DNA from: an uncultured Acidobacteriia bacterium | GTDB taxonomy: Bacteria > Acidobacteriota > Terriglobia > Bryobacterales > Bryobacteraceae | DNA: 51,598 nt | Direction of reading: 5' to 3' | Assembly (NCBI GenBank): GCA_903900705.1 | Contig: CAIUOG010000081.1 | Coordinates: 1-51,598, forward strand | Shown: piece after piece, positions 3,736 to 12,160 of the stretch | Layout of the letters: each line of letters opens with the position of its first letter | How positions within the stretch are numbered: position 1 is the stretch's first letter | Position numbers and translations under genes: made by a program | The notes under the pieces: model-generated | Databases searched by the model: none | What the model was told of the DNA's origin: nothing | Seen by the model: the letters and a program-made list of their open reading frames with translations, nothing else

Positions 3736-4461
3736 ATGACGGGCGCACTGAGCACGAAACTTCTTCTTGTCGACGACGACCTGAAGCTTTGCCGCCTCGT
3801 GCGGTCCTACCTGGAACCCATGGGCTACGCCGTTACCACCGCGCACAATGGCCCGGACGGACTCGCCCAGGCACTCGGCGGCGAGTTTGACGCGCTCATT
3901 CTGGATGTCATGCTGCCCGGCATGGACGGCTTCGAGGTTCTGAAAAAGCTGCGGGCAACTTCAAATGTTCCGGTGCTGATGCTAACGGGCCTCGGCGAGG
4001 AATCCGACCGCATTGTGGGCCTTGAAATCGGTGCGGACGATTATCTGCCGAAGACGTTTTCCACCCGCGAACTGCTGGCCCGGTTGCGGGCCGTGATACG
4101 GCGATCCCGCATGACCGCCGTGCGAATGCGGGAAGAGCGAAGCAGCGCTGTCGTGGTGGGTGAGATCCGGATCGATCCGGAATCGCGCGAGGTTTCGGTC
4201 CGGGGAAGCAACATCACATTGACTGCCGTGGAGTTCGACCTCCTGTTGTCACTGGCGAAGGCGGCAGGCCGCGTCAAGACCCGCGAACGTCTGCTGCTGG
4301 AGGTGGCCGAGCGGGACTTTGAGGCCTTTGATCGTTCGATCGACGTCCATATCTCCTCCATCCGGAAAAAGCTCGGCGACGATCCGAAAACGCCCTTGTT
4401 CATCCAGACTATCCGGGGCGTTGGATATATGATGCTGAAACCCGGTGTGGCGGCCGAATGA
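3736..4461 (+). CDS. OmpR/CpxR-family response regulator
   Basis: A 241-residue DNA-binding response regulator. The receiver domain spans residues 7-120, with the acidic pocket D13-D14, phospho-acceptor D57 (LILDVMLPGMDGF), T84 and K106. The OmpR-type winged helix follows at about 140-235 and ends in the typical TIRGVGYMM. It overlaps the downstream histidine kinase gene by 4 bases (ATGA), so the two are translationally coupled and form a cognate pair. One oddity is that the invariant Lys-Pro of the receiver (usually LPKPF) is LPKTF here. The loss of that cis-proline may alter the activation switch. The gene diverges from the di-haem oxidoreductase gene (136-base gap). Confidence 0.9.
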   Translation: MTGALSTKLLLVDDDLKLCRLVRSYLEPMGYAVTTAHNGPDGLAQALGGEFDALILDVMLPGMDGFEVLKKLRATSNVPVLMLTGLGEESDRIVGLEIGADDYLPKTFSTRELLARLRAVIRRSRMTAVRMREERSSAVVVGEIRIDPESREVSVRGSNITLTAVEFDLLLSLAKAAGRVKTRERLLLEVAERDFEAFDRSIDVHISSIRKKLGDDPKTPLFIQTIRGVGYMMLKPGVAAE

Positions 4462-5945
4462 TGAAGCCGGCGTGGCCCCTTTCCAGACAGATCTTCGCTC
4501 TGGCGTTCGTGAACCTTGCGCTGCTGCTGGCGGTCTTCGTAGCCTTTGCCCAGTACCAGTTCCATCTGGAATTGGGTTCGTTTTTGTTTGCGCCCGCGCG
4601 AGACAGGCTGGAGGACGTGGCAATGGACGTTTCTCTCGAACTGCAGGAAACGCCCCTTGCCATGCGCACTGAACTGCTGGGACGTTATGCAGCCAATAAC
4701 GGCGTCGATTTCTTTTTGTTCGACAATCGGGGAACACAACTGGCGGGACGTCCGGTGGAGTTACCAGCGAAATTACAACGAATCCTGCTGGGCCCGCGCC
4801 GCGAGGAAGACGGCAAACTGGCGGATGAGGGCAGGGCGTTCCCGCCACCGCCACCGCCCGAGCGGGGCGGGCCGCCGCCGCGACGCCGGGGTCCGTTCGG
4901 GCGACCTGGTCGGGGTGGACACGAGGTCTTCCAGCTTTCCTCCCGGGAAATGTTCTGGGCCGGCGTACGAATTCCGATCGACGCGCCGGGCGAGAGTGCT
5001 CCGGTGCGAGGTACGCTCATCCTGGCTGCAAGGTCATTCTTCAACACGCCGCTTTTCTTCGACTTCAAGCCATGGCTTGCCGCGCTGTTGGCGGCCACCG
5101 CGATATTTCTGATCTGCTGGCTGCCGTTCATCCGCGGTATCACGAAAACGGTTTCCCGAATCACCCGCGCCGCCGAACAGATCGGGCAGGGAGATTTCGG
5201 CCGGCATCTCCCCGAAGAACGCGGAGATGAGCTCGGGCAACTGTCGATGGCAATCAATCGCATGGCGGACCAGCTGGCTGGCTTCGTCAAAGGCCAGAAA
5301 CGCTTCCTCGGCGATATAGCCCACGAACTCTGCGCCCCGATTGCGCGAATGCAGTTCGGCCTCGGCATTCTCGATCAACAGGCCACCGAGGCCCAGAAAC
5401 CGGCCGTTGCGGACGTCCAGGAGGAGATGGGACAAATGTCCGCACTTGTCGGGGAACTACTTTCTTTTTCGAAAGTCGGAATGGAGAGCAGGGAGCGAGT
5501 TCTCTCCGCAGTGGACGTGCGGGCAGTCGCGATGCGGGCAGCGGAGCGCGAAGCGACAACGAATGTCCGGATCGGGGTGGAGATTCCCGCTCCACTGCAG
5601 GCGCTGGCGGAACCCGAGTATCTGCTGCGATCTCTCGGAAATCTGGTCAGAAATGCGGTTCGGTACGCGGGTGATGCGGGCCCCATTACGATTTCGGCCA
5701 GAAAGGAACGGGGCCAGATCGTCATTCTGGTTTCCGACTGTGGGCCCGGCCTCCCGGCAGAGGAGTTGGAGAAGGTATTCACGCCGTTTTACCGCCTCGA
5801 GGCTGCGCGCGACCGGGAGCACGGCGGCGTGGGTCTGGGTCTTGCCATCGTGAGGAGTTGCGTGGAAGTCTGTCGTGGTCAGGTAAAGTGCCGGAACCGG
5901 CAACCCTCAGGCCTCGAAGTGGAGATCCGCCTCTCCGCGGCCTGA
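4458..5945 (+). CDS. CpxA-like sensor histidine kinase
   Basis: A 495-residue membrane sensor kinase. Transmembrane helices lie at about 12-32 and 206-226 and flank a periplasmic sensor. HAMP is at about 227-280, then the H-box with H289 (AHELCAPIARMQ), the N-box near N397 (LVRNAVRYA), the G1 box DCGPGLP and the G2 box GVGLGLAIV. The HELCAPIAR form resembles CpxA-type kinases. The periplasmic part carries an unusual low-complexity insert at about residues 128-154: six prolines in a row, then Gly/Arg/Pro repeats. The gene starts inside the stop codon of the regulator gene. The signal is unknown; envelope stress is the family precedent. Confidence 0.9.
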   Translation: MMKPAWPLSRQIFALAFVNLALLLAVFVAFAQYQFHLELGSFLFAPARDRLEDVAMDVSLELQETPLAMRTELLGRYAANNGVDFFLFDNRGTQLAGRPVELPAKLQRILLGPRREEDGKLADEGRAFPPPPPPERGGPPPRRRGPFGRPGRGGHEVFQLSSREMFWAGVRIPIDAPGESAPVRGTLILAARSFFNTPLFFDFKPWLAALLAATAIFLICWLPFIRGITKTVSRITRAAEQIGQGDFGRHLPEERGDELGQLSMAINRMADQLAGFVKGQKRFLGDIAHELCAPIARMQFGLGILDQQATEAQKPAVADVQEEMGQMSALVGELLSFSKVGMESRERVLSAVDVRAVAMRAAEREATTNVRIGVEIPAPLQALAEPEYLLRSLGNLVRNAVRYAGDAGPITISARKERGQIVILVSDCGPGLPAEELEKVFTPFYRLEAARDREHGGVGLGLAIVRSCVEVCRGQVKCRNRQPSGLEVEIRLSAA

Positions 5946-6028
5946 GGTGCTTCACCTGCATTTCCCGCTCAAGCAATACCCCCAATTGCCGATAAGTTCA
6001 TCAGCGGACAAAAGGGCGCACCAAAAGC

Positions 6029-7054
6029 ATGATTACACTCTCGCCATTTCTGAAGGCGCGTGGCAGGGATGACCACGATGACAAGGAAATCTCCCGGGCT
6101 GAAAAACAGGCAGAGGCGCTGAACAGGATTGTCTCAATTCTGTTGCAGGGAATCTCACTGCACGGTTTCAACTACGACCCTTTGGCAGCGGTGAGCTTTG
6201 AGAACTCCGTACGCAAACTACGGATGGAGTTTGAAGAGGCTTCCGACGAGGCCGCCGCGATGCTCATCGCGGGGAATGCCATCCGGCTGATGGAGGATTA
6301 CAACCGGACCGCCGAGAGACACCTGGCGGCCCGCCAGAATGAAATGGAAGCGGTTCTGGCCATGCTCTCCGAGGCACTCCTCGAAGCCTCCCGGGCGACG
6401 CCCGAGTTCCTGATCAGACTGAAAGAGATCGAGAGGGACATCTCGCTTTCCACCCGCCCTGATAGTGTGGCTGCCGCAAGGTCTCGGCTTGCGCAATGTC
6501 TGTCGGATCTGCGGGTGGCTTCGGCCGCCGACGGACCGTTCCAGCATTCAGGTCAAACCTTCGGTGAGACAGACACAGACCCCGTGACCGGCCTTCCCAA
6601 TGTGGCGTTCGCCACCGCTGCAATCGGAAAGATCTGGAACCGGCGCATGGACTACTATGCGGTTACCTTCGCGGTGGAGAGACTGGAGACCGTGAACCTG
6701 CGCTTCGGCTTTCAGGCCGGTGACCAGATGTTGCGGCGACTGAGCGAGCACATTGCCCGGCAACTCATATCCTCCGACCAGTTGTTCCGCTGGCGAGGCC
6801 CCTGCCTGATGATGCTGGTGGAGCGGCGCCTTCCGGAAACGCTGGTTGCGGCTGAAATCAGCCGCATCACGCCCGTCCGTCTCGAATCTGCGATTGCGGT
6901 CCGTGACCGGGAAGTGATGGTTCCCATCTCGGCGGCCTGGCACCTGGTCCCTTTGAGTGGCGTCAACAGCCTGGATGAGTTGGCGCGAAAGCTGAATGAG
7001 TTCGCCGGCAGCCGCTCCCGGCAGGGGAGAAAAGTTACCGCGGCCGGTATGTAA
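6029..7054 (+). CDS. Protein with degenerate GGDEF domain
   Basis: A 341-residue cytosolic protein with no membrane helix. Residues 1-165 are mostly helical and charged, with likely coiled coil around 20-150. Residues 183-330 show the start of a GGDEF domain (DPVTGLPN, then the NLRFGFQAGDQMLRRL segment). The signature loop that should read RxGGDEF is RWRGPCLMMLVE instead, so the active site for diguanylate cyclase activity is gone. By analogy with other degenerate GGDEF proteins it may act as a c-di-GMP or nucleotide sensor or as a protein-interaction module; this is inference. It follows the two-component pair by 83 bases and precedes the DUF3179 gene by 11 bases, so it is probably co-transcribed with the latter. 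Confidence 0.75.
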   Translation: MITLSPFLKARGRDDHDDKEISRAEKQAEALNRIVSILLQGISLHGFNYDPLAAVSFENSVRKLRMEFEEASDEAAAMLIAGNAIRLMEDYNRTAERHLAARQNEMEAVLAMLSEALLEASRATPEFLIRLKEIERDISLSTRPDSVAAARSRLAQCLSDLRVASAADGPFQHSGQTFGETDTDPVTGLPNVAFATAAIGKIWNRRMDYYAVTFAVERLETVNLRFGFQAGDQMLRRLSEHIARQLISSDQLFRWRGPCLMMLVERRLPETLVAAEISRITPVRLESAIAVRDREVMVPISAAWHLVPLSGVNSLDELARKLNEFAGSRSRQGRKVTAAGM

Positions 7055-7065
7055 GACTCTGTTGT

Positions 7066-8256
7066 ATGAGCCGTTCTCAATTCCGGATTGTTGTGTCGCT
7101 GTGCTTTCTGATCGCAGCGTTTGATCTGCTGTATCCGGTCTATGTAATCCGTCCCTTCCGCCATCAGGGGCAGGTGGAATTGCAGGTCGCACTTTGGGTC
7201 TTGCGATATCGAATGGTTCCGGAACTCCTCATGTCTCTGGTCGCTATGGCGGCTTTGTGGATGTCGTGGCCCGCGCGGAAGTCCAAAGTGGCGCGGGTCG
7301 CCGGGGTCACGGGCACTTTGGCGGTGGTAGCCTGCGCGCTGCTCTCGCGCGTGAACGTCTATGAGCAGATGTTTCATCCATTAGGAACGCCGGCCTTTGA
7401 GAGTGCCGGACAAACCCGGCTTGACGGGTCCGAGAAGGTCCTCTCGGTCCGCCTCGGAGAGGAGTCCCGCGCGTACCCCATTCGAAGCATTTCCTACCAC
7501 CATATTGTGAACGATTTCGTTGCTGGCGTACCGATCGCGGCCACGTATTGAACGCTCTGTCACACCGGTCTGGTGTGGGGGCGTGAGGTGAATGGCCTGG
7601 TTCTGACCTTTCATCTTGCGGGTATAAATAATCAGAACTTCCTGATGCGGGACGAAGAGACTGGCACATGGTGGCAGCAGATCAGCGGGAAGGCCGTATC
7701 CGGTCCTCTCGCCAGGCAGTCGCTGCGACTGATTCCTTCCGATGAACTCACCTTCTCCCTGTGGAAATCCGAACAGCCGGGCGGCACGGTATTGAAAGAC
7801 GTCGCCGCGTACGCCGACCAGTATTCCCCCAAAGATTGGGACGTGGCGATGAAGAAGCGACCCACGGTGATCAGCTATGCGGGCGACGGCCTGGGTGACC
7901 GGGATCTGATGCTCGGCATGCACGCGTTTGGCGAATCCCGGGCATTTCCGAGGGAACTGGTACTACGCGAGAAGCTCGTCAAAGACCGAATCGGATCGGA
8001 ATCCGTCATCCTGGTGGTAGGGCCCGACGGCGAGTCAGTCCGGGCATTTCGCCCCGGGACGAACGACTTCTACCAGACTTCGGAAGGTATGATCGACAGC
8101 ACAACGGGAAGCCAGTGGAATTTTCAGGGTTGTGCCGTCTCGGGCGATTCCAAAGGCAAGTGTCTGGAGCGCATCGGGATCATCGCGGACTACTGGTTTG
8201 ACTGGCGTCAGTACAATCCCCAAACCACTGTTTACCGCGGCGCAACGCGGCGCTGA
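7066..8256 (+). CDS. Putative selenoprotein: membrane DUF3179 protein with in-frame TGA (Sec162)
   Basis: Read through one TGA (7549-7551), this frame encodes 396 residues. Three N-terminal membrane helices lie at about 8-30, 46-64 and 74-94, followed by a DUF3179 domain that would sit at the outer face of the inner membrane. The family normally has TYCxLC after a (I/V)VND-x-(V)-GGVP segment. Here the sequence is HHIVNDFVAGVPIAATY, then TGA, then TLCHTG. The stop therefore replaces exactly the first Cys and gives U162-T-L-C165, a UxxC redox motif. Downstream of the TGA the same frame continues for 234 residues with intact family motifs (RDEETGTWWQQ, SGPLA, TTGSQWNF) to a normal stop. A SECIS-like hairpin starts right after the TGA. 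A chance nonsense mutation or a read error is the alternative. DUF3179 has no settled biochemical function; a thiol/selenol redox role is inferred. Confidence 0.75.
7549..7584 (+). promoter_or_regulatory. Candidate bacterial SECIS element and Sec codon
   Basis: The UGA codon (7549-7551) is followed at once by a two-tier hairpin. The lower stem is 7552-7558 with 7578-7584 (ACGCUCU/GGGGCGU, 7 bp including two G-U pairs). A 2-nt bulge (GU, 7559-7560) lies on the 5' side. The upper stem is 7561-7566 with 7572-7577 (CACACC/GGUGUG, 6 bp). The apical loop is GGUCU (7567-7571). The E. coli fdhF SECIS also has GGUCU in its apical loop and a bulged U on the 5' side. The loop begins 15 nt after the UGA here, against 18 nt in fdhF. 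The role in recruiting SelB with Sec-tRNA is inferred from that resemblance. Confidence 0.65.
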
Positions 8257-9055
8257 GTCCGAGCCCGAACAGAAACAGCCCCCAGCTTCCTGGTTCCGGC
8301 ACAGCGGACTGCGCACTGCTGGCCGAAACTCCAACCGCACTAAACGAACCCACAGCGACACCACCGTCAATAATCTGCGCATTCAAACGGGAGACCCGGG
8401 CAAAGTTCGTCGTTCCCAACGCGGCGGAATAGATGTAGTTTTTGTCGTCCTGCCCATATTGAAAGAGTTCCAGACTTCCATTCACAATCGCCGATCCCGC
8501 AACGCCGGTGACACCGGTGCTGCCGAGATCGGTCGCCTTGCCCGTCGTCATGTCAATGGTGTAGAGTTCATCACGGGAACCGGACCGCCCCTCCGTGTAA
8601 TAGAGCAGATTCCCACTCGCGGAAAGACTGGTGTCGTCCTGCCCGTTGTTGGCGGAAATCCCGGTCGCGCCCACCAGTTTTGCGCCGCCCGTCTGCGCGT
8701 TGATGGAATACAGATTCGACGCATAGTCCAGTTCGAAAAGCCCGTTGCTGTCTCCGCCGAACGCCGCCAGACTCAGATTGGCGCCGGTGTTCCCCAGCAA
8801 ACTGGCGGAGCCGGTCACCGAATCCACAGAATACAGATTATTACCGAAGTCTTCGAGATACAGCATTCCATTCAGTCCGGCCAGCCCGCCCGCCTTGCTG
8901 ATGGGTAGCGTACTCACAGCCGAATACGCGCCGGTCGTGTCATTCACGGTGCCGAAGCGATTGTCATAGAAGATTACATTGACGCTGCTGGCAAAGGACG
9001 GCAGCGCCTCAAAGGCAAGAACAAGACGAAGAAGAAGGAAAGCAAACAGTCTCAC
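8180..9055 (-). CDS. PEP-CTERM protein with DUF-type beta-propeller body and extended tail
   Basis: A 291-residue secreted protein with a signal peptide (residues 1-23). The body is made of repeats of the kind LYSVDSVTGSASLLGNTG / LYSINAQTGGAKLVGATG / LYTIDMTTGKATDLGSTG, at roughly 45-residue spacing, which suggests a beta-propeller. A PEP-CTERM signal follows (VPEPGSWGLFLFGLGLSAALRRG). Normally the protein ends just after the arginines. Here about 17 more residues follow, encoded by a stretch that overlaps the convergent DUF3179 gene by 77 bases. Either the tail is real or the ancestral stop has been lost. The start is GTG at 9053-9055 with only a weak ribosome site. Confidence 0.8.
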   Translation of the reverse strand: MRLFAFLLLRLVLAFEALPSFASSVNVIFYDNRFGTVNDTTGAYSAVSTLPISKAGGLAGLNGMLYLEDFGNNLYSVDSVTGSASLLGNTGANLSLAAFGGDSNGLFELDYASNLYSINAQTGGAKLVGATGISANNGQDDTSLSASGNLLYYTEGRSGSRDELYTIDMTTGKATDLGSTGVTGVAGSAIVNGSLELFQYGQDDKNYIYSAALGTTNFARVSRLNAQIIDGGVAVGSFSAVGVSASSAQSAVPEPGSWGLFLFGLGLSAALRRGKQWFGDCTDASQTSSPR

Positions 9056-9104
9056 GAACAGCTATCGGCCCGCAGGACCGAAAGCTTTACCCCGGACGGC
9101 AAGC

Positions 9105-9830
9105 TTAGCCGAGATTAAATGATTCGCCCAGATAAACGCGCTTCACTTCCGCGTCCTGAGCCAGCTTATCCGGACTGCCGCTTCGGAAGATCTTACCCGC
9201 ATTGATGATGTACGCCCGGTCGGTCACGCTCAGCGTTTCGCGCACGTTGTGGTCCGTCACCAGAATGCCGAGCCCCGCCCGCTTCAAATCGAGAATAATT
9301 TTCTGCAGTTCAATTACCTGAATCGGATCGATGCCGGAAAACGGCTCATCCAGCAGCAGGAAGCTCGGGTCTATCGCCAGCGACCGGGCAATTTCCACGC
9401 GCCGCCGTTCTCCGCCGGAAAGCACGTAACCCTTGCTGCGCCGAACGGTCTCAAGCCCCATCTGCTCGATGAGCTGATTCATCTTTTCCCGGCGCTCACG
9501 GCCACTCATCCGGCGGGTCTGCAGAATCGCCATCAGGTTTTCTTCCACCGTCAGCTTGCGAAAGACCGACGCTTCCTGCGGCAGGTAGCTGATCCCGTGG
9601 CGGGCTCGCTGGAACATGGGCATGTTGGTCAGGTCCGCGCCGTCCAGCAAAACCTTGCCGGAATCCGGGCTGATCAGGCCGACCACCATATAGAAGGACG
9701 TCGTCTTCCCTGCCCCGTTCGGGCCCAGCAGACCGACGATTTCGCCGCGCTCCACCTTCACCGACACGTCGTCAACCACACGCCGACCGCGGTATGACTT
9801 TGAAATCTCAACAGTTTCGAGGATCTGCAT
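9105..9830 (-). CDS. lptB: LPS export ABC transporter ATP-binding protein LptB
   Basis: The 241-residue ATPase of the LptB2FG complex, which powers transport of lipopolysaccharide from the inner to the outer membrane. Walker A is GPNGAGKT (36-43), the Q-loop is [18 protein letters not shown] (82-99; the SVFRKLT sequence is typical of LptB), the signature is LSGGE (137-141), Walker B is FLLLDE (157-162), and the H-loop is TDHNVRE. The ATG overlaps the stop of the upstream lptC/lptA-type gene by one base (TGATG), so translation is coupled. The gene pair confirms a diderm envelope with an LPS-type outer membrane. Length is normal for the family. Confidence 0.95.
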
Positions 9831-12160
9831 CAGCGCTTTTTCTTGTGCAATTCCGTTCTGACTGGCTTTTTGGGAGCGCCTTCCATAATCAGCTTGTCCG
9901 TTTCCGTAAAGTAAGTCAGCTTGTCACCCTGCGTATTGCCCTTCAGAGAGTCCTTCAGCAGCGGTTCACCGCCGGTCAGGATGATTTTGCCTTCCTGCGC
10001 GTAATATTCGGCATGTTCGCTGGTACCGATGCGCTGGCGGCCCTTCGTCGCCTGCACAATCTCCACTCCGCCTTCGGCAAAAGCGTGATGGATGCGGGAG
10101 TCCTCGTCGGACTTGTTGTCGTTCAGGAAGGCCTGAAGCGACACGCTCTTCACCGTCAGACCAGGGCGGAAAAAGTTCGTTCCCCCGGTGTAGACAGCCT
10201 GACGGTCCGCGTCCGTGTAAACCATGTGGCGGGCTCTCACTATTGTGAAGATGGGCGCGGCGGATTCCGGTTTCGCCTTTTTGGGGCCCACCGGCTTTTT
10301 GTCATCCGCTTTCGTCTTGTCTTCTTTCTTCTTATCTTCTTTTTTCTTATCTTCGAACTGGCTGATCACCTGGCCATCCGCCACCAGATTCTTCTTCTCG
10401 CGGTCGATGTCGATGCGGTCCGCCTGGATCCGGTTCGACGCCTGCCACAGCACCGCGTTGCCCACGTAGTGGATCAGATGGTTGTGATTCGCGGACGTCA
10501 CGCGATCCGCCAGTCCCTGCGTCGGCTCCTCGGAATCCAGCATGTCCGAACTCGTCTTCTTTTCGTCCGGCAGGCGGGTGGTGGAGACGTGCCCCTTGGC
10601 ATCGAAATCACCCGTTGTTTGTTGAAGTTCGATGGTGTCGCCGGCGGTGGAACCAGATTCGTCGGCAACCCGCGCGTGGTTTTCCAGGTTCATCACATTA
10701 CGATCCTGCTCCAGCGTCGCGTTATCCGCCTGCGCCTTGCGTGCGCCTTCCACGTAGCGGAAATCACCCAACTGCTTCATCAGCTTCAACTGGGCCTTTT
10801 CGTCAAACGTGGCGTCCAGAACCTTGCTGGTGGTGTAGGCCACGGCCAGATTGGCTTTCTTCTTTTTCTTCTCTTCTTCCGAGGGATAGGTTTCCGTGGC
10901 GGCGTTGGTGGCGTGGAAAGACTGAATCTCGCTCTTCGCGCCGTAGCGGATATCCATATCCGACGACTTCAGAACGCGGCGGTGGCGGGCGATCTGATTG
11001 GGGACAAATTCGAGAGTACCGGGCGAATGCGTCACCACGCGTTCCAGATCCCGGCCGCCTGGCTTCATGAACAGATCCAGGTTGTCGGACTTCAGGAGCT
11101 TCGTATCCGAGGTATTGCCTTTCGGATCGGGCGTCGGCTTCGATTCGATAAAGCCGTTGCCCTTCGCCAAAGCACTGGCGAGTTCGCTCTCGCCGGAATC
11201 GGTATTAAAAAACAGATCGACCGAGTTGCCGGTCATGGTCGTCACCGAGCCATTGCCATGGGACACCAGCTTCGCGCTGTTGGTGCCGTTCAGCTTCTCC
11301 ATTTCGCCATCTTCGTTGTACTGAACGTGAAGCTGACCGGCCGCGTACTCCAGTTCCTTACCTGGGCGCTTGTCCGTGCCGGCGGCGTTCGGGGCATCCA
11401 CCGTATCCAGGCGTTTCTGTTTCTGGTCATTGGCCTTGAGCCGGACCACGGCGGGACCAGCGTTAATCAGGGTCTGATCGCGCGTCAGGCGGGACCAGCC
11501 GCCGAGGTAAATGACGCCATCCTTCTCGCTGTAGCGAAGGTCGCCGGCTTCCACCTTCATGGGCTTGGCCTTCGGGTTGCGGCTGTGCAGATTCAGAACC
11601 ACCCCATTCTGCAACTGCAGTTCATGGGTTTCCGGATCATAAGCCGCGCCGGTGCAGGTGCCGCTGCCGCCATCGAACGTGAAAGCCACCGGCTTATCGG
11701 TAACCGCCTTCCCGCTCCGACTGTCGAAGTTGATGCCCGCGGCCTTGATGGCGGTCAGTGCTTTGGCCGGTTCGCCTTCCACCGGGACGGTGAGAGTGAT
11801 CTCGGCCTCGCCGGGCGCGTAGAGCTTCGCCTCGGTGGTGGAGAACTGCGCGAGCGGGCTGCGAACGCGATCATAATGCTGGCCGTCCTTCATGTAGATC
11901 TTCAGTTCCACTTCCTGAAGTTCCATCATGTTGTTGTCACCCAGTCGTGAGTTTTTGGCCGAGACGTGGACTGCGGGCTTTCCGTTCTCGCTCTGGCCCC
12001 ATTCGTACTCCTGCGCGGTACCGAGCGTTCCCAGCGGAATAGTCGGCGGCATCGGGCGGGCGTGCTTCGTCGCCTGGTCCCGCTGTTTCCGATAAATCCC
12101 GAATACGGCGGCTACGAGGGCGAGAATTGCCACCAGCAACAGCCAACGCAGACTTCGCAT
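9830..12160 (-). CDS. LptC/LptA fusion protein (multi-domain OstA-like)
   Basis: A 776-residue envelope protein. A single N-terminal membrane helix (about residues 5-23) and an LptC-like beta-jellyroll region are followed by several LptA/OstA-like repeats, recognisable as segments such as [50 protein letters not shown] and [18 protein letters not shown]. In proteobacteria LptC (about 190 aa) and LptA (about 185 aa) are separate. Here one chain appears to supply the inner-membrane anchor and much of the periplasmic bridge. A Lys/Asp/Glu-rich linker ([13 protein letters not shown] and flanks) interrupts the C-terminal third at about residues 604-630. It sits directly upstream of lptB with a 1-base overlap, which supports the role. 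Confidence 0.85.

Follow-up and report, generated by a model that had tools for sequence, protein, structure and literature searches.

A predicted DUF3179 selenoprotein of an uncultured Bryobacteraceae bacterium, with Cys and Ser forms of the protein among its relatives

DUF3179 (pfam11376) is already a recorded selenoprotein family, appearing in reviews of 2022 and 2026. Table 1 of PMC9312934 contains an entry for a DUF3179 selenoprotein with the motif UxxC/T (MBW1804167.1, its ref. 63), and a table of PMC13188914 has a PF11376 selenoprotein, likewise UxxC/T (MDJ0986319.1), for which its ref. 60 is the Olavius algarvensis symbiont study of Zhang and Gladyshev (2007). An earlier, sequence-only reading of the DNA described here had not identified DUF3179 as an established selenoprotein family, a question that these table entries settle against novelty. 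For the phylum, a passage of PMC1794560 counts three selenoprotein families and four selenoproteins in the Acidobacteria as of 2006, and a passage of PMC12013277 credits Occallatibacter riparius with three known selenoprotein genes, which it does not name; passages of PMC4807772 hold nothing on DUF3179. A DUF3179 protein is placed among the cytoplasmic membrane proteins in an excerpt from an Idiomarina paper, and a search of the openly licensed literature found no functional study of the family. Judged by table entries, the gene that we describe resembles the reviewed selenoprotein in its Pfam domain and its UxxC motif (here UTLC, which fits UxxC/T), and is set apart from it by the UTLCHTG sequence of its clade, by N-terminal hydrophobic segments and by an extra cysteine pair, Cys356/Cys366. 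The details found here are an internal tandem duplication whose first copy alone carries Sec, a nested Cys form and Ser/Ser paralogues.

The DUF3179 selenoprotein gene of the window (the whole stretch of 51,598 nucleotides that was analysed) occupies 7066..8256 on the plus strand, from its start ATG at 7066 to its terminal TGA at 8254-8256. Another TGA, codon 162 (7549..7551, plus strand), is the sole internal stop among 396 codons, so the continuous frame with a single interruption proposed from the sequence is borne out. Translated through the TGA, the protein matches Pfam DUF3179 (PF11376) with an E-value of 1.3e-57 over residues 108-387, and this match crosses the TGA; its 195.9 bits, against a gathering score of 27, place the protein in the family, and the homology on both sides of the in-frame TGA is that of a bacterial selenoprotein. 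An NCBIfam search of the protein returned no family, and a MerC match below its cut-off was set aside, as it falls on the hydrophobic part of the protein. The closest protein relatives come from Bryobacterales and other acidobacteria, and the gene is the only DUF3179 match in its genome (6.1 Mb, 99.87% complete). The alternation of TGA and Cys codons in relatives, the sel genes of the genome and the codons of a downstream hairpin support the selenoprotein reading, and we consider it very probable that codon 162 encodes selenocysteine, inserted by SelB and tRNA-Sec. Gene callers that stop at the TGA will cut such a protein short or miss it.

DUF3179 was present in 133 of the 396 genomes of a phylum search. 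In an alignment of 110 relatives, made up of 30 loci from this search and 80 loci kept of the 105 that a genome-contig search found, column 162 was TGA in 88, TGC in 16 and TGT in 6, that is, TGA or Cys throughout; the 80 genome-contig loci comprised 79 with TGA and one with TGC (L086). The 30 nearest genomes supplied another 24 loci, several of which are records already within the set of 110 (identical rows in the tree); the 24 had TGA in 9, TGC in 12 and a Ser codon (TCC/TCA) in 3, so that 21 of the 24 carry Cys or Sec and the other three are Ser paralogues. Thus, the TGA/Cys alternation at this exact column that the sequence-only reading had proposed to look for was found, while the scattered stops in close relatives that would have spoken against it were looked for and not seen; among the phylum-search matches listed, internal stops occurred only as one TGA (about 52 rows, by eye). 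In a tree of 135 rows made by a quick method, the Sec, Cys and Ser states need six changes, and the Cys form L086/L147 (two loci of identical sequence) lies among Sec rows, in starred groups of 8 rows (6 of them Sec) and of 44 rows. Cys-form motifs among DUF3179 proteins are CPLC, CTLC and CPLT. Cys-form proteins share with the window protein the domain, His145, Asp196, Trp203 and the Gly positions, and differ from it in having Cys for Sec and, in the close forms L147 and L146, in lacking the GGTCT loop described below. The three Ser paralogues (L154, L158 and L159) have Ser at both 162 and 165, and two of their three genomes also carry a TGA copy; the Ser/Ser protein is perhaps a redox-dead copy.

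The window protein has two hydrophobic segments over threshold, residues 8-26 and 75-93 (7087..7344, plus strand), and hydropathy thereby supports the N-terminal membrane anchor claimed earlier. Among 34 close relatives, three such segments were counted in 26, two in 4, four in 3 and one in 1, and a third segment is perhaps present in the window protein between residues 26 and 75. The chance that the DUF3179 domain lies outside the cytoplasm is about even; sidedness is unsure because loops 70-80 and 27-52 each contain four basic residues. Comparison of residues 100-232 with residues 255-392 by HHalign gave a probability of 99.6 and an E-value of 3.9e-24, so that DUF3179 consists of two tandem copies of one unit, only the first of which holds Sec: the N-terminal repeat (residues 110-228; 7393..7749, plus strand) carries Sec162, and the equivalent place in the C-terminal repeat (residues 267-375; 7864..8190, plus strand) is without Sec or Cys. 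A single-protein search of the PDB found no relative, and the best match of a profile search there had an E-value of 0.43, with unrelated names.

Residue conservation was counted in 134 of the 135 tree rows, L147 being omitted as a duplicate of L086. His145 (7498..7500, plus strand) is His in all 134, Ser paralogues included, Gly186, Trp203 and Gly213 are unchanged, and the single change at Asp196 is a Glu, found in one of the Ser paralogues. Cys165 (7558..7560, plus strand), paired with Sec162 in UTLC, is found in all 89 of the subfamily's Sec rows and in 3 of 9 distant Sec rows, so that the UxxC motif of the earlier reading stands for the subfamily and fails for most of the distant Sec rows. 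Six distant Sec forms (L034, L036, L045, L047, L051 and L055) read UPLT, UPLV or UPLA, without a second Cys. His166 is present in 87 of the 89 subfamily Sec rows, and distant members mostly have Gly, Tyr or Asn there. Also typical of the subfamily is the pair Cys356 and Cys366 (8131..8163, plus strand), each present in 88 of 89 Sec rows with one gap, kept in the three Ser paralogues and not among the commonest states of the distant rows; it probably forms a structural disulfide. A role for this pair in serving Sec162 is disfavoured, since the Ser paralogues retain both cysteines. The Ser paralogues have lost both 162 and 165 and kept Cys356/Cys366, and these two lost residues therefore seem to work as a pair.

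Based on these features, we envisage that SelB and tRNA-Sec, guided by the short hairpin after the TGA, would insert Sec at residue 162 of a product that the N-terminal hydrophobic segments would hold in the membrane. Sec162 and Cys165 would then form a reactive selenol/thiol pair, with the invariant His145 and the nearly invariant Asp196 presumably nearby in the site, and this site may carry out thiol-disulfide or peroxide-type redox chemistry, while the second repeat would contribute its separate cysteine pair as a probable structural disulfide. Redox chemistry of some kind is somewhat favoured by the residue pattern, our best guess being a membrane-anchored selenol-thiol oxidoreductase. There is a lesser, still appreciable chance that Sec162 instead acts as the nucleophile in a site of the Cys/Sec-His-Asp type, as in a hydrolase or transferase, which would accord with the constancy of His145 and the single change of Asp196, and with the absence of the second Cys from six of the nine distant Sec forms. 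Against such non-redox catalysis, a passage of PMC9312934 assigns nearly every selenoprotein whose function is known to antioxidant defence. The joint variation of residue 165 with residue 162 in the subfamily also speaks against it and for the selenol/thiol pair. Slightly less probable again is that Sec is inserted and that Sec162, Cys165 and His166 bind a metal, or that UxxCH binds haem: CxxCH is the haem c motif, the Sec of hydrogenases is a metal ligand, and His166 is nearly constant in the subfamily, but the distant members mostly replace this His, some have Ala, Thr or Val for Cys165, and we know of no haem bound through a selenol. The redox reading of the Sec162/Cys165 site is the one that we prefer.

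In E. coli fdhF, a short hairpin just after the UGA carries a loop of the GGUCU type that is read by SelB. The window has a SECIS-like hairpin, CACACC-GGTCT-GGTGTG (7561..7577, plus strand, loop 7567-7571), 10-26 bases after the TGA; its loop, GGUCU in RNA, resembles the fdhF loop, and its stem presumably differs from that of fdhF in sequence and length. Across the window and 80 loci (81 rows), which are related by descent so that the counts are not independent, the codons were GGT in 80, TGT in 69, CAC in 79, ACC in 75, CTG in 78 and GTG in 79, against same-gene background frequencies of 0.11, 0.20, 0.60, 0.44, 0.41 and 0.44, respectively; in these rows the residues that follow Sec hardly vary, and neither do the third bases. 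All 74 distinct TGA rows had the loop GGTCT unchanged, and 98.6% of stem cells were paired. One stem pair is swapped from C-G to G-C in L111 and L112, with both sides changed, and the stem is broken at two of its six pairs in each of L115 and L126 and at one in each of L057 and L078. Covariation is thin, as a both-sided change occurs in one of six pairs and this count was reached by 44 of 500 shuffles. The fold energy is modest as well: when the window was recoded synonymously 2000 times, 117 versions were equally stable, and the mean z of 80 TGA rows was -0.87 (11 of 80 below -2), whereas ten control places gave values from -0.44 to 0.29. Because of this modest signal, fold energy by itself was rejected as support for a SECIS, and the lower stem of the window's own fold was also rejected, the consensus structure having 7 pairs only. 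Rfam gave no match to the hairpin, and at a relaxed threshold only two matches appeared, with E-values of 3.3 and 6.4. The case for a SECIS element downstream of the TGA is therefore made by the frozen codons together with the hairpin, the energy test alone being weak.

Cys forms of the protein provide natural experiments on these codons. The sequence TGT CAC ACC GGT of the Sec forms is TGC CAT ACA GGC in the Cys form L086/L147, and this form and L146, both close Cys relatives, have GGC for GGT, CAT for CAC and TGC for TGT; the fold z of the Cys row L086 was +0.35. The source genome of L086/L147 retains SelA. In G437, the genome of L146 (95% complete, 6% contamination), a search for SelA gave no match and no tRNA-Sec exceeded the cut-off; its DUF3179 gene combines TGC at column 162 with the altered hairpin codons; its placement in the tree is unsure.

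The genome of the window encodes the machinery for Sec insertion, as the earlier reading required: selA, selB, selC and selD were all present and over their cut-offs, and the absence of selB or selC that would have counted against a selenoprotein was looked for and not seen. SelB scored 349.8 bits (cut-off 242.25), SelA 487.1 (267.9) and SelD 365.8 (125), and two tRNA-Sec genes were above the Rfam cut-off, both of them tRNA-SeC (tca) according to ARAGORN. The SelD gene (G000:C152:8002-8910, L019) has one in-frame TGA, and SelD itself perhaps contains Sec. The two tRNA-Sec genes, at 257-351 of L001 and 1501-1595 of L002 (contigs G000:C100 and C126), each adjoin a tRNA-Gln (ttg) gene, the two blocks being 91.7% identical over 265 bases. 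The first 105 bases of C100 are found again, without any change, some 1 kb behind the C126 copy, which may mean that the two genes are near neighbours or that this part of the assembly is tangled. Among the matches listed, no other relative had two tRNA-Sec matches over 60 bits.

The link between Sec machinery and the TGA form in the genus is good but not perfect. The 19 genomes of the genus set, our own included, comprise 10 with the TGA form, 2 with Cys only (G437 and G446), 1 with Ser only (G447) and 6 without a DUF3179 match (G431, G432, G434, G435, G442 and G443). The 10 TGA carriers include 9 with SelA and 8 with tRNA-Sec over the cut-off. One exception is G441 (83% complete, and judged by match positions to be the source genome of L056), a TGA carrier without selA or selC over the cut-off; the other is G433, in which SelA is present and selC is represented by no more than a 46.9-bit fragment at the beginning of a contig (cut-off 47). 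Conversely, the five members without SelA over the cut-off are three without DUF3179, one with the Cys form and G441, and SelA occurs without DUF3179 in three (G432, G434 and G435). In the 35 source genomes of the contig-search loci, SelA was over the cut-off in 31, in split pieces in 2, weak in 1 and missing in 1.

In G439 a TGA form of DUF3179 (L160, match 4101-5012, minus strand) is clustered with the sel genes, which lie on its upstream side in the order tRNA-Sec (5442-5536), SelD (5565-6719), SelA (6699-8132) and SelB (8129-10045). A tRNA-Sec gene is also found about 1.2 kb upstream of the DUF3179 gene in L115. Such adjacency to selC is rare, being seen only in L096 (apparently the same place as that in G439) and L115 among the 80 contig-search loci, whose flank lengths vary. 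In the window, the DUF3179 gene follows a GGDEF gene, with a response regulator and a histidine kinase ahead, and may be co-transcribed with the GGDEF gene because only 11 bases separate the two. Over 81 loci, the largest neighbour family occurred in 18, and none of the 14 largest included the window. A minus-strand open frame with a PEP-CTERM motif (8180-9055) covers the final 77 bases of the DUF3179 gene.

Read-through of the TGA by means other than Sec, whether by near-cognate insertion, a reassigned code or a regulated partial event that yields a short membrane form and a long form, is very improbable. The 161-residue product would keep the hydrophobic segments, making a minor short form conceivable, and G441 has the TGA where selA and selC were not found; nevertheless, TGA terminates the window gene, which argues against reassignment, the sense codons at column 162 are Cys, or Ser in the three paralogues, and never Trp, and the frozen codons are gone in two close Cys forms. 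That the TGA is a true stop in a broken gene, or an error for a Cys codon, can be dismissed (as can code reassignment), for even though TGA is a normal stop that also ends this gene and is one base away from TGC and TGT, it recurs in most of the relatives, from many assemblies, with the frame open on either side and the codons after it frozen.

Insertion of Sec at codon 162 thus stands as our reading of this gene. More speculatively, and with the balance of probability against the proposal as a whole, DUF3179 may represent a redox architecture of its own, unrelated to thioredoxin, in which a duplicated module with the Sec/Cys site in only one copy, exposed on the outer side of the membrane, would provide many acidobacteria with a thiol enzyme dependent on Sec and would in some be important enough to be clustered with the Sec machinery. 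As close relatives possess this protein in Sec, Cys and Ser versions, with the hairpin codons lost from the two close Cys forms, the value of Sec over Cys could be tested directly, and the window gene offers a well-controlled case of Sec use in the Acidobacteriota.
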